Shown here: piece after piece, positions 50,082-52,858 of the stretch
How the letters are laid out: the number at the start of each line of letters is the position of its first letter
How positions within the stretch are numbered: the first letter of the stretch is position 1
Origin: Thioalkalivibrio sp. ALJ24
GTDB lineage: Bacteria; Pseudomonadota; Gammaproteobacteria; Ectothiorhodospirales; Ectothiorhodospiraceae
Direction of reading: 5' to 3'
Length of the DNA: 64,000 nt
NCBI RefSeq assembly: GCF_000377785.1
Contig: NZ_KB898725.1
Location: forward strand, 307,775 to 371,774
Translations under genes and position numbers: made by a program
Notes under the pieces: model-generated
What the model was told of the DNA's origin: nothing
The model's input: only the letters and a program-made list of their open reading frames with translations
Databases searched by the model: none

Positions 50082-50785
50082 TGCGGGCCATGATCCTCGC
50101 CGCCGGGCGCGGGGAGCGCATGCGCCCGCTCACCGACGAGCGCCCCAAGCCACTGCTGGAGGCCGGGGGCCGTCCGCTGATCGAGTGGACGCTGCAGCGC
50201 CTGGCGGCGGCCGGCGTAGAGGATGTGGTCATCAATACCGCCCACCTGGGCGCGCAGATCCCGGCGCGCCTGGGCGATGGCGCGGCCTTCGGACTGCGGG
50301 TCCGCTATTCGCCCGAACCCCCGGGGGCCCTGGAGACCGCCGGCGGCATCCGCCAGGCCCTGCCACTGCTGGGGGAGTCGCCCTTTCTGGTGGTCAACGG
50401 TGACGTCTGGTGCGACCATCCACTCGCCCCCCCGGCCCGGCTGCCGGGGTCGATCGACGACCCCTGGGCGCCGCTGGCGCACCTGGTGCTGGTGGACAAC
50501 CCGCCGCAGCACCCAGAAGGCGATTTCGCCCTGACAGCGGACGGCCGCATCTCCGCGGAAGCCGACGGGCCGCGCCTGACCTTCAGCGGAATCGGCTGGT
50601 ACCACCCCGACCTGTTCGCCTCGCTCGAGCCGGGCCCCCGACCGCTGGGGCCGGTACTGCGCGAAGCCATCGCAAGGGGCCGTGTCTGCGGTGAGCACTA
50701 CCGCGGGGAATGGCGCGACATCGGGACGCCCGAGCGCCTGGCCGCGCTGGACGCGGAGCTGCGCCGGGCTCAGGGCTTGATGTAG
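50081..50785 (+). CDS. murU: N-acetylmuramate alpha-1-phosphate uridylyltransferase
   Basis: 234 residues, a nucleotidyltransferase. The start [20 protein letters not shown] then RPKPLL is the nucleotide-binding signature, with LVVNGDVW as the metal site and [12 protein letters not shown] near the end. MurU turns MurNAc-1-phosphate into UDP-MurNAc, bypassing de novo synthesis. Its start overlaps the amgK stop (TGATG; a GTG three bases earlier is possible). The 3' end overlaps the convergent DsrE-like gene by 16 bases. Confidence 0.9.
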
Positions 50786-51261
50786 CTGAACCCCTTGCGC
50801 TGCAGCCGGTAAAGCTCGGTGATGCCACTGCTCACCACCTCGTCGCGCAGGACGTCGTGCAGATCGGATCGCTCCAGCCCGCGGGCCTCCAGCGAGCGTC
50901 GACTGACCAGGAATTCGACCCCCTGCAGCCGCAGGGTATCCAGCTCCACCGCGGTCGCCGTTCCGATCGAGCCGGCCTCCAGCAGGCGCACACCATCCCC
51001 GTGCAGGACCACGCGGGCATCCAGCGCCTCCGGACCATCGCTGACCACGTGTTCCTTCAGATAGCGCAGCACCAGACTGAATTCGCCCGGATCCGCGGAA
51101 TCCACGTGATAGACCAGCCGCAGGATGTCGCCCGATTCAACCGAGTGCTCGTCGGCAAACGCCGGCGCCCCCGCGAGGAGGCTCGCCAGCAGGATCAGCG
51201 GGAGAAAGCCGGGCAAAAGTGAAGGAAACCCGCAGCGCGGGCGCGCCTGTGCCCCCCTCAC
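50770..51261 (-). CDS. Secreted DsrE-like protein lacking the conserved cysteine
   Basis: 163 residues from a GTG start. A signal peptide ends near AFA-DE (about residue 36), so the protein is periplasmic. The rest resembles the DsrE/DsrF-like COG1416 fold: [39 protein letters not shown], and the ending [20 protein letters not shown]. Where the family and the neighbouring anti-sigma factor have F-x-A-C-x-x-T-L, this protein has a serine. It is the third gene of the sigma/anti-sigma unit, 18 bases after the anti-sigma stop. Its role is unknown; a ligand-binding or regulatory paralogue is plausible. Confidence 0.8.
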
Positions 51262-51279
51262 GTGGCATACCCGGGCCGA

Positions 51280-52185
51280 TCAGACCTTGACGTAGATCCA
51301 GCCCTCCGCCTGACGGCGGGCGGCTTCGGCCACGCCCGAGTCGACGCGTTCGGCGTGCGGGAGGATCGGGATCTCGGACTGCCCCTCTTCCCGCGCCAGC
51401 CGGGCGAGGGTCTCGTTGCAGGCCGTGAACTGCAGCCCTTCATGCTCGCGGCTCAGAGCCGCCACGCGTTCCGGGAACGGGGCACGGTCGGCACGCAGCA
51501 TGTCGATGGCCTTGTTGTGCACCACCACCTGCACATCCAGGGCGCGCTGGTCGCGGGCCGCCTCGTCGAACATCGCCTCGATGTCGTCCAGCAGTTCTTT
51601 CATGGCACGCTGATCGACGTCAGTCACGTGGAGCAGGAGACGGTCACTCTCCTCGGCCGCATGCGCCGCATGGGGCGCGCCCCCGCCCTCCGTGACCGGC
51701 GCCCCGGTCACTTCGTGCATCCCCGATGCGGGATCACCCCCGGGCGCTCCGGTCGCCAGCGTGGACTCAGCCCGGTTGTCGGAGCCCGGGCCCTGGACCA
51801 GCAGGCCGGCATCCCGGGTCACCTCGTAGCCCGCCACCGATCCCAGCACCAGCGCCACCACGCCGGCCGCCACCGACGAAAACCAGCCCTTGCGCCCCGC
51901 ACCCCCGGGGCGCGTGCGGGCGAGGAATCCGGGCGCGCCCGAGGCCTCCTCATCATCCGAATCACTGCCGCGGCAGCCACCTGCGGGCTCGGGCAGATCC
52001 TCGTACGCCATCGCGACCAGCTCCTTGAGCTGATGCATGTCGCAAACCTCACGGCTCAGGTGCTCGCTGGAGGCGATCGCCTGCAGCGTATGCAGCCGGT
52101 CCTCCGGGGAGAACTCGCCGTCCACGAAGGCGTTGAGAATCTCCTCGCTGGGACGGTCCTGCGCCTTGAGTCGGTCGTCAGCCAT
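51280..52185 (-). CDS. Membrane anti-sigma factor with C-terminal DsrE-like domain
   Basis: 301 residues. Residues 1-75 look like an anti-sigma N-terminal domain (PSEEILNAFVDGEFSPEDR, then a helical part with CDMH), without the complete HxxxCxxC zinc motif. An acidic linker is followed by one transmembrane helix (about 100-120), a low-complexity Gly/Ala/His spacer, and a DsrE-like domain (about 180-301). The domain ends VDSGVAEAARRQAEGWIYVKV and has the conserved cysteine at 256 (FTACNETL). Orientation predicts the DsrE domain in the periplasm. The start lies inside the sigma gene's 3' end (8-base overlap), the usual coupling for such pairs. Confidence 0.82.
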   Translation of the reverse strand: MADDRLKAQDRPSEEILNAFVDGEFSPEDRLHTLQAIASSEHLSREVCDMHQLKELVAMAYEDLPEPAGGCRGSDSDDEEASGAPGFLARTRPGGAGRKGWFSSVAAGVVALVLGSVAGYEVTRDAGLLVQGPGSDNRAESTLATGAPGGDPASGMHEVTGAPVTEGGGAPHAAHAAEESDRLLLHVTDVDQRAMKELLDDIEAMFDEAARDQRALDVQVVVHNKAIDMLRADRAPFPERVAALSREHEGLQFTACNETLARLAREEGQSEIPILPHAERVDSGVAEAARRQAEGWIYVKV

Positions 52186-52768
52186 TCTGGCTCCTCACTA
52201 CCCTGAGTTGCGGCCCGGCCTCGCCCCCTTCCGCGGCGTCCTCGGGTGCCGTTTCGGTCTGCGGTGCGGGCTGCTGTTCCAGCAATTGTTTCTTCAGCTG
52301 TGCCCGGGCCCGGCTGAGCCGGCTCATCACCGTACCGATCGGGACGTCCAGCACCTCGGACACCTCGGCATAGGCAAAGCCTTCGAGGTCCACCAGGGCC
52401 ACCACCTGTCGGTGGTCGGCGCTCAGTGCGGACATCGCACGATGCACCTCGGAGACCCGGCGGTTACGTTCGGTCTGCTGCTCCGGGCAGTCCTCGCAGG
52501 CCAGCTCCATGTTGTCGACGTCGACCGTGTCCTTTTGCCGCCGTCCCCAGTCGCGGTAGCAGTTGGTCATGATGCGGAACACCCACGACTTGAGCGCGTT
52601 CTCGTCCTGCAACGACTTCAGCCGGGTGAGGGCCTTCATCATGGCCTCCTGAACCAGATCGTCGGCCAGCGCGGCGTCGTGACACCATGCGTAGGCCATG
52701 CGGTACATCTGCGGTCGCAGGTCGCAGACCTGCTGGCGCAGCCGCCTCTGAGCGAACCACGTCGCCAT
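52178..52768 (-). CDS. ECF-type RNA polymerase sigma factor
   Basis: 196 residues. Region 2 (about 20-85) has YRMAYAWCHDAALADDLVQEAMMKAL and SWVFRIMTNCYRDWGRR. Region 4 (about 115-170) has ALSADHRQVVALVDLEGFAYAEVSEVL and the helix-turn-helix PIGTVMSRLSRARAQLKKQL. The linker carries CEDC, an unusual cysteine pair. ATG 52768 has GGAG nine bases upstream; ten more codons upstream are open but lack such a site. It is co-transcribed with its anti-sigma factor and is probably autoregulated through the GGAAT/CGTC site upstream. Confidence 0.93.
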   Translation of the reverse strand: MATWFAQRRLRQQVCDLRPQMYRMAYAWCHDAALADDLVQEAMMKALTRLKSLQDENALKSWVFRIMTNCYRDWGRRQKDTVDVDNMELACEDCPEQQTERNRRVSEVHRAMSALSADHRQVVALVDLEGFAYAEVSEVLDVPIGTVMSRLSRARAQLKKQLLEQQPAPQTETAPEDAAEGGEAGPQLRVVRSQNG

Positions 52769-52827: not shown

Positions 52828-52858
52828 GTAGGACGCTGAGTCCCCGGGTGCTATTCCC
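52828..52858 (-). promoter_or_regulatory. Candidate autoregulatory ECF promoter
   Basis: On the minus strand GGGAATA (52858-52852), 16 bases, CGTCCTAC (52835-52828). The spacing and the downstream octamer are identical to the site before the thioredoxin gene at 23.4 kb. It lies about 60 bases before the sigma factor ATG, as expected for self-activation. Confidence 0.55.

Follow-up and report, generated by a model that had tools for sequence, protein, structure and literature searches.

How does a bacterium that lives on reduced sulfur register its food outside the cell? The sensing of external sulfur by the regulators of sulfur oxidizers has been called poorly understood (PMC11582611; this and all other papers cited here are represented by part of their text), and a small operon of Thioalkalivibrio sp. 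ALJ24 gives the question a concrete form. The operon lies in a window of 64,000 nucleotides (the whole stretch of DNA that was analyzed; contig NZ_KB898725.1, positions 307,775 to 371,774 of the forward strand) and encodes on the minus strand, in this order, an extracytoplasmic function (ECF) sigma factor, an anti-sigma factor that ends in a DsrE domain, and a secreted DsrE paralogue. What might such a domain sense, and which genes would the sigma factor serve? We consider it likely that a membrane-bound sulfur sensor frees an ECF26-like sigma factor and thereby turns on the genes of periplasmic thiosulfate oxidation. This proposal is built on the computed gene set and domain identity, both near certain, the topology prediction, a conserved cysteine (Cys256 of the anti-sigma factor), a conserved promoter motif, the regulon predicted from it, and the co-occurrence with soxB.

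The operon and its DsrE domains

A sequence-only reading of the window had described a three-gene set at 50770–52768; its coordinates were right, and all three identities were borne out. The sigma factor (52178..52768, on the minus strand like all features below) is a protein of 196 amino acids containing sigma-70 regions 2 and 4 (Sigma70_r2, PF04542, 50.4 bits; Sigma70_r4_2, PF08281, 54.7 bits; both above the Pfam cut-off), which identifies it as an ECF sigma factor. It also passes the general NCBIfam model sigma70-ECF, and no equivalog was passed among the 25 families shown. Its gene overlaps by 8 bases with that of the anti-sigma factor (51280..52185, 301 amino acids), and 18 bases past the latter follows the gene of the secreted paralogue (50770..51261, 163 amino acids, GTG start). 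The 25 named loci that match the anti-sigma factor are all labelled Thioalkalivibrio, the nearest being T. halophilus with 69–71% identity; loci duplicating named ones were excluded from the genus alignment, as was L056, whose contig is cut off. Beyond the genus, the comparison was made with 20 loci of the class Gammaproteobacteria, the best-scoring 20 of 59 genomes outside Thioalkalivibrio that encode the same fusion of an anti-sigma factor with a DsrE domain. These loci contain 22 anti-sigma genes.

The C-terminal domain of the anti-sigma factor (residues 180–301, 51283..51648), which we take to belong to COG1416, matches Pfam DsrE with 17.1 bits (E 0.0062), below the curated cut-off of 22.7. 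A profile built from 11 Thioalkalivibrio DsrE domains found MTH1491 (1l1s) at E 4.7e-14 and ST0148 (2pd2) at E 1.3e-8, and the profile alignment shows a C-terminal end common to all three (SGV...R.Q.EGW.Y). In the AlphaFold2 model, residues 181–301 reach block means of 86–96 in the predicted local distance difference test (pLDDT), with the rest of the anti-sigma factor at low confidence. The modelled domain agrees with MTH1491 at Z 18.0 and 1.3 Å over 109 residues, followed by 2pd2_A (Z 16.6), YchN (1jx7_A, Z 12.9), TusBCD (2d1p_A, Z 11.9), and DsrEFH (2hy5_A, Z 11.8); the likeness to the last two, sulfurtransferases whose heterohexamers relay persulfide to DsrC/TusE, is a distant fold similarity only. 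The DsrE-like nature of this domain, first proposed from the letters alone, is thus confirmed by profile and fold.

By hydropathy, 25 anti-sigma sequences drawn from genus and class each have a single clear membrane helix. In the window, its peak covers residues 100–118 and the helix of the model residues 105–124 (51814..51888). Positive charge is greater on the N-terminal side of the helix in 24 of the 25 sequences, and because a single hydrophobic helix is combined with a positive excess on this side, the DsrE domain is predicted to be periplasmic, in line with its earlier placement outside the cytoplasm. On the other side of the helix lies a helical domain with a presumed sigma-binding function (approximately residues 8–62, 52000..52164), which comprises four helices in the low-confidence part of the model. 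The genus alignment has 52 invariant columns, and 29 of them lie in this domain. Its matches to known models are weak: of 25 sequences, eight matched zf-HC2 (best E 0.0022) and one matched RseA_N (E 0.026). The putative binding of the sigma factor is favored by gene order, since all 22 anti-sigma genes of the class loci have a sigma gene next to them. Furthermore, several Thioalkalivibrio genomes encode short, free-standing versions of the N-terminal domain (L420 2069–2389, L421 2215–2535, L422 2134–2406, L423 2240–2479, and L424 1926–2372) in frames of 80–149 amino acids with a Trp-rich end and no DsrE part. No sigma match was found in the stretches around them, and they might be decoys or soluble forms of the anti-sigma factor.

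Within the DsrE domain, Cys256 (codon 51418..51420) is the candidate sulfur-binding residue. The third strand of the model ends at this residue, which aligns with one cysteine of MTH1491 and one of ST0148. The residue is kept in all 25 Thioalkalivibrio loci, window included, and in all 22 anti-sigma proteins of the class loci, so that the conservation claimed for it in the sequence-only reading extends to 47/47 fusions. Seven columns are invariant across genus and class, four of which fall in the DsrE domain (Cys256, Gly295, Trp296, and Tyr298). Relatives such as DsrE and TusD carry sulfur on a cysteine, and for this reason a sulfurated Cys256 is proposed here. That the domain senses a sulfur species appears fairly probable to us; that a persulfide on Cys256 is the trigger is a tentative idea, which we rate somewhat below probable. 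Redox sensing through cysteines of the sigma factor itself was set aside, as several of these are kept in the genus but some are missing from the starts of class sigma factors (e.g., L264).

The secreted paralogue shows a signal-like N terminus in a scan of hydropathy and charge, matches Pfam DsrE with 36.3 bits (cut-off 22.7), and was modelled with a mean pLDDT of 83.9. The sequence-only reading had noted a serine in place of the DsrE cysteine, which is true in the window (Ser120, codon 50902..50904) and not true in general: the position is a Cys in 37 of the 40 copies aligned (18/20 from Thioalkalivibrio and 19/20 from the class loci). Serine occurs only in the window and in T. halophilus (L032), and one class copy (L130) is aligned with Glu. 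As the cysteine is kept in 37/40 copies, Ser120 represents a local loss in these two. The window's own genome, moreover, encodes a second secreted DsrE (L145) that has kept the cysteine and stands behind the operon's promoter motif. The serine was therefore rejected as the mechanistic key.

The secreted DsrE gene lies beside the sigma/anti-sigma pair in 20 of the 25 genus loci. In L049, L052, L053, and L054 the pair is kept and the neighboring secreted DsrE is missing, and the contig of L040 ends soon after the pair. Together with the prevalence of the cysteine, these four loci speak against the serine paralogue as a built-in competitor or co-sensor, parts that the sequence-only reading had suggested for it beside that of a chaperone. 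Since some lineages do without a neighboring copy, the secreted DsrE is perhaps dispensable there. Of the 20 class loci, 17 have a separate DsrE gene within the stretch, and where such genes stand apart from the operon, the motif lies upstream in 7/8 cases. The secreted DsrE, itself predicted to be under the control of the motif, probably carries or buffers sulfur and in this way supplies the sensor or damps it.

Promoter motif and predicted regulon

In an alignment of the DNA upstream of the sigma gene, GGAATA-N16-CGTC is unbroken in 25/25 Thioalkalivibrio loci. The motif was derived from the upstream DNA of sigma genes only. In the window it occupies 52832..52857, where it forms the predicted autoregulatory promoter (-35/-10) of the operon, and this is its only match in the window, with 0.12 expected by chance for the pattern with spacers N15–17. 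When the window's own genome was scanned with spacers of N16 or N17, 13 sites were obtained, compared with none for the pattern read backwards. The seven N16 sites precede the sigma gene, soxA, soxB, soxY, and the genes of a secreted rhodanese, the Cys-bearing secreted DsrE, and a CheW-like protein. In the last of these genes and in those behind the six N17 sites, no sulfur link was recognized by eye. SoxA (197.8 bits, cut-off 110), SoxB (703.7, cut-off 550), and SoxY (145.5, cut-off 125) were identified with NCBIfam models, and the rhodanese and DsrE targets pass their Pfam cut-offs. We are highly confident in predicting that a Sox regulon stands under this sigma factor in Thioalkalivibrio.

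This prediction was extended to the sites of other Thioalkalivibrio genomes (G012–G022, G025, G026, G029, and G030; the sigma site itself is not among the sites taken for G012, G020, G021, G022, G025, G026, G029, and G030), with G001, G002, and part of G003 as controls. A homologue of one of the six targets of the window's own genome follows 44 of the 59 sites (SoxA 15, SoxY 14, sigma 7, rhodanese 7, SoxB 1, and DsrE 0). Nine further sites precede genes of other rhodaneses (L181, L188, and L234), SoxH-related metallohydrolases (L185, L189, L192, and L194), and CcoN (L183 and L191). The products of L181, L183, L185, L188, and L189 exceed the Pfam cut-offs of Rhodanese, Lactamase_B, or COX1, whereas the NCBIfam cut-offs were not reached, neither for the SoxH-related models nor for CcoN, which is a cut protein; the products of L191, L192, L194, and L234 were assigned by their likeness to these five. 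The remaining 6/59 sites precede nothing of these kinds, and three of them stand before genes of GGDEF proteins. The position of the motif before CcoN, a subunit of the cbb3 oxidase, in two genomes and, by eye, before a GGDEF protein in two others (L199 and L210) hints at links to respiration and cyclic-di-GMP. In the sister genus, where the anti-sigma factor is present in 0/10 genomes, none of 20 sites precedes any of the six targets (two of these sites, L238 and L252, have no open frame of 60 amino acids within reach). The difference between 44/59 and 0/20 corresponds to a Fisher probability of 1.2e-9, with the sites of related genomes treated as independent.

How far does the system reach beyond the genus? 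A profile search, in which a full-length fusion was defined by a model start of at most 17 and a model end of at least 248 and was read by hand from matches listed down to E ~4e-9, placed such a fusion in 61 of 369 class genomes with 38 family labels among the matches listed. In view of this spread over the class, the idea that the pair is a local oddity was rejected. SoxB, with presence set at E 1e-90, was found in 150/369 class genomes. The distribution of soxB agrees with a tie of the gene set to sulfur oxidation genes, as soxB is present in 60 of the 61 fusion genomes and in 90 of the 308 others (Fisher 2.6e-26 with kinship ignored, again among the matches listed). The promoter motif, with a spacer of 15 or 16, precedes 19/22 sigma genes in the 20 class loci.

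Upstream of soxB, the motif was looked for within approximately 1 kb in 55 of the 60 fusion genomes and 54 of the 90 others (one stretch, G336, is short, and G335, among the controls, matches the fusion profile in part, at model positions 47–252). It was found in 15/55 and 0/54, respectively (Fisher 1.2e-5), compared with 0 on the opposite strand and 0 or 1 per group for two false spacings. With these proportions, control of soxB is indicated in part of the class and not shown for the larger part. As only 15/55 have the motif close upstream, soxB in the others would lie inside an operon or not be under the sigma factor. By eye, the motif was also seen before a thioredoxin-like gene (L272) and a DsbD-like gene (L274) in distant class members, whose products could be SoxW-type and thiol-transfer partners.

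Some class members carry more than one copy of the system. Two stretches (L120 6563–10946 and L121 7084–11533) each hold two adjoining sigma/anti-sigma-DsrE pairs and two secreted DsrE genes, and every sigma gene there has its own GGAATA-N16-CGTC. A second, distant anti-sigma-DsrE protein that keeps the cysteine was observed in some genomes of the family (L425 3287–4713, L426 2551–3851, L428 2939–4245, and L427 1–864). Three of these four stretches contain a sigma gene (L427 starts inside the gene), and the copy in L426 is flanked by secreted DsrE genes.

In a phylum sample of 398 genomes, three full-length fusions were found, i.e., the window's own genome and two of the same class, along with one N-terminal-only match outside the class (G707). 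A fusion beyond the Gammaproteobacteria was rejected because seven of the matches outside the class (L397–L403), those examined in their stretches, have neither a sigma match in the stretch nor the N-terminal domain. They are DsrE proteins strongly resembling the sensor domain, several of them with a signal-like start by eye. Among plasmids, 1186 records match the sigma factor, none at 60% identity or more, and nine records match the anti-sigma factor, all in its DsrE part only (query 182–300).

Proposed mechanism and its alternatives

We picture the switch as follows. As long as no signal arrives, the sigma factor would be held at the inner membrane by the anti-sigma factor's N-terminal domain. 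Once the periplasm contains thiosulfate or intermediates of its oxidation, Cys256 would take up sulfane sulfur, either directly or by way of a carrier (for instance SoxYZ or a secreted DsrE protein). The signal would cross the membrane through a conformational change or through cleavage of the long variable linker and helix, and the freed sigma factor would then transcribe its own operon as well as, from scattered GGAATA-N16-CGTC promoters, soxA, soxB, soxY, and the genes of secreted rhodaneses and additional secreted DsrE proteins. Sigma binding, promoter use, the identity of the signal, the chemistry of Cys256, the mode of release, and the role of the secreted DsrE are what we infer here. 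The sulfur-tied membrane switch of the sequence-only reading is supported strongly, if indirectly, by the promoters before sox, rhodanese, and dsrE genes and by soxB in 60/61 fusion genomes; the part given to the serine paralogue is not supported in its original form, and persulfide sensing stays conjectural.

Several observations weigh against a sulfur switch of this kind. The N-terminal domain of the window's anti-sigma factor has no Pfam match and is named by neither Pfam nor NCBIfam; its model is of low confidence, and its matches in other members are weak. Free-standing DsrE proteins also have the equivalent of Cys256, and the conservation of this residue may for that reason reflect the fold or carrier chemistry. 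The strict motif stands before soxB in only two classified Thioalkalivibrio genomes (the window's own and G012). Sister-genus genomes that lack the system hold 0–8 motif sites versus 0–3 for the reversed pattern; site counts alone thus fail to separate the two genera, and the case rests on the genes behind the sites. Outside the genus, scans over the whole length of four class genomes gave 47 sites versus 24 reversed (9 versus 9 in G171), and most of the 30 class motif loci that were opened lie before genes without a recognizable sulfur link. With scans so noisy and so few sulfur genes behind the sites, the regulon outside the genus is not readable from the sites alone. Moreover, 40/55 soxB genes of fusion genomes lack a close upstream motif, one fusion genome (G101) has no SoxB match at E 1e-90, and the soxB association takes no account of the phylogeny of the 61 fusion genomes with their 38 family labels. 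Finally, all members of the genus are sulfur oxidizers, so that any housekeeping-like sigma factor could seem sulfur-linked.

In its most specific form, our proposal is that the anti-sigma factor directly senses periplasmic sulfane sulfur through a Cys256 persulfide, that the sigma factor is the Sox master regulator in a broad range of Gammaproteobacteria, and that the secreted DsrE proteins are sulfur-delivering co-sensors. This combination is possible and is put forward tentatively, with slightly less than even confidence. The same regulon would result if the DsrE domain docked a partner, such as sulfurated SoxYZ or a secreted DsrE, and served as a protein–protein sensor of Sox flux. A ligand protein could be expected to be encoded as the secreted DsrE is, by a separate gene in 17/20 class loci and behind the motif in 7/8 of the cases placed apart, and SoxY belongs to the predicted regulon. 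An invariant Cys256 is, however, not required by docking alone, and L049, L052, L053, and L054 have no neighboring secreted DsrE; we consider docking rather unlikely.

Periplasmic thiol or redox stress could also be what Cys256 responds to, by reacting with oxidants, sulfite, or metals, in which case the Sox genes would be part of a detoxification response. The motif is of the published ECF26 type, and in the available text Sinorhizobium meliloti RpoE1 and RpoE4 are described as responding to sulfite-generating compounds; the class sites before the thioredoxin-like and DsbD-like genes (L272 and L274, by eye) point the same way. Yet the recurrent Thioalkalivibrio targets are sulfur-oxidation genes, and no sulfite dehydrogenase was recognized behind the classified sites, which leaves a stress sensor unlikely. 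In a third alternative, the sigma factor of these sulfur lithotrophs would be constitutive or tied to growth rate, with a structural or vestigial DsrE tail and a sox link that mirrors the common lifestyle. This would suit a genus that lives on sulfur, in which sox genes may need little regulation, as has been suggested in the consulted part of PMC10451225 for dedicated oxidizers with truncated Sox. Against this, a motif derived from sigma genes marks sox genes where the system is present and not in the sister genus (0/20) or in genomes with soxB only (0/54), and four of the seven columns invariant across genus and class fall in the DsrE domain. We regard a constitutive sigma factor as very improbable.

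A sulfur-sensing anti-sigma factor, if true, would explain how sulfur oxidizers sense their food without prior import. The candidate is specific and widespread, its promoter is readable, its targets are predicted, and there is a single residue to mutate, which makes the question of external-sulfur sensing directly testable.

Comparison with known systems

Anti-sigma factors of the RseA/RsiW type have one membrane helix, a cytoplasmic N-terminal sigma-binding part, and a periplasmic C-terminal sensor. The layout described here is alike, with a different sensor domain (DsrE). To our knowledge, no other sigma/anti-sigma pair has a DsrE sensor. PMC7406223 surveys class I anti-sigma factors, and a term search in its available text returned neither DsrE nor a sensor domain; no description of a sigma/anti-sigma pair with a DsrE sensor was found in the open-licence literature, which was represented mostly by titles and abstracts; the sequence-only reading had likewise known of no such layout. 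MTH1491, ST0148, and more distantly YchN, TusBCD, and DsrEFH share the fold of the sensor domain. They are small, free-standing proteins, whereas here the fold forms the periplasmic end of an anti-sigma factor.

The regulators of sox genes in the literature found are cytoplasmic ArsR-type repressors of an alphaproteobacterium. SoxR and sHdrR of Hyphomicrobium denitrificans are sulfane-sulfur-responsive repressors of this type, and SoxT1B is an importer (PMC10451225, PMC11582611, PMC12423496; partial texts). Common to both cases would be the control of sulfur-oxidation genes by sulfane sulfur, for which SoxR uses cysteines. SoxR and sHdrR are, in contrast, DNA-binding proteins of the cytoplasm, with SoxR and SoxT1B described as a signal transduction unit, whereas a sensor outside the cytoplasm and a sigma factor are predicted here. 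In the part of PMC10451225 available, a link with soxR is described as less frequent for truncated Sox systems, and gammaproteobacterial families are listed where the truncated type prevails.

A close likeness is to the ECF26 sigma factors of S. meliloti and their EcfR anti-sigma partners (the pairs of RpoE1, RpoE4, and RpoE6), for which the same restriction to partial texts applies. There, too, the sigma gene is followed by that of an anti-sigma factor with an N-terminal domain, a transmembrane part, and a periplasmic C terminus, the layout that the topology prediction gives for the anti-sigma factor of the window. The promoters also agree: the ECF26 consensus has GGAATA at -35 and GT at -10, the printed rpoE4 promoter reads GGAATA-N16-CGTC (PMC6180224), and 25/25 genus loci and 19/22 class sigma genes fit this consensus. 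By sequence identity, the sigma factor is about as close to RpoE6 (ECF26, 36%) as to another sigma factor of the S. meliloti megaplasmid (37%). The two systems differ at their input and output ends. PMC6180224 calls the C-terminal domains of the S. meliloti anti-sigma factors RsiW-like, in contrast to the DsrE domain found here. For this comparison, RpoE6 was taken from S. meliloti pSymA (L416), where the promoter published for it served to locate the gene. EcfR6 came from the corresponding part of an S. kummerowiae plasmid (L418), in which it lies behind the same RpoE6; this EcfR6 matches neither the DsrE profile nor that of the anti-sigma factor, its only likeness being one of 13 residues at E 0.062. 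RpoE1 and RpoE4, which control sorT, respond to sulfite formed out of thiosulfate or taurine (PMC3511301), so that their known targets concern sulfite oxidation, whereas soxA, soxB, soxY, and dsrE are the targets predicted here. Given the match of the motif to ECF26, the absence of a DsrE match in EcfR6, and the ArsR nature of the known sox regulators, we take the system to be ECF26-like signaling that is new in its proposed DsrE sensor and in its predicted Sox pathway target.

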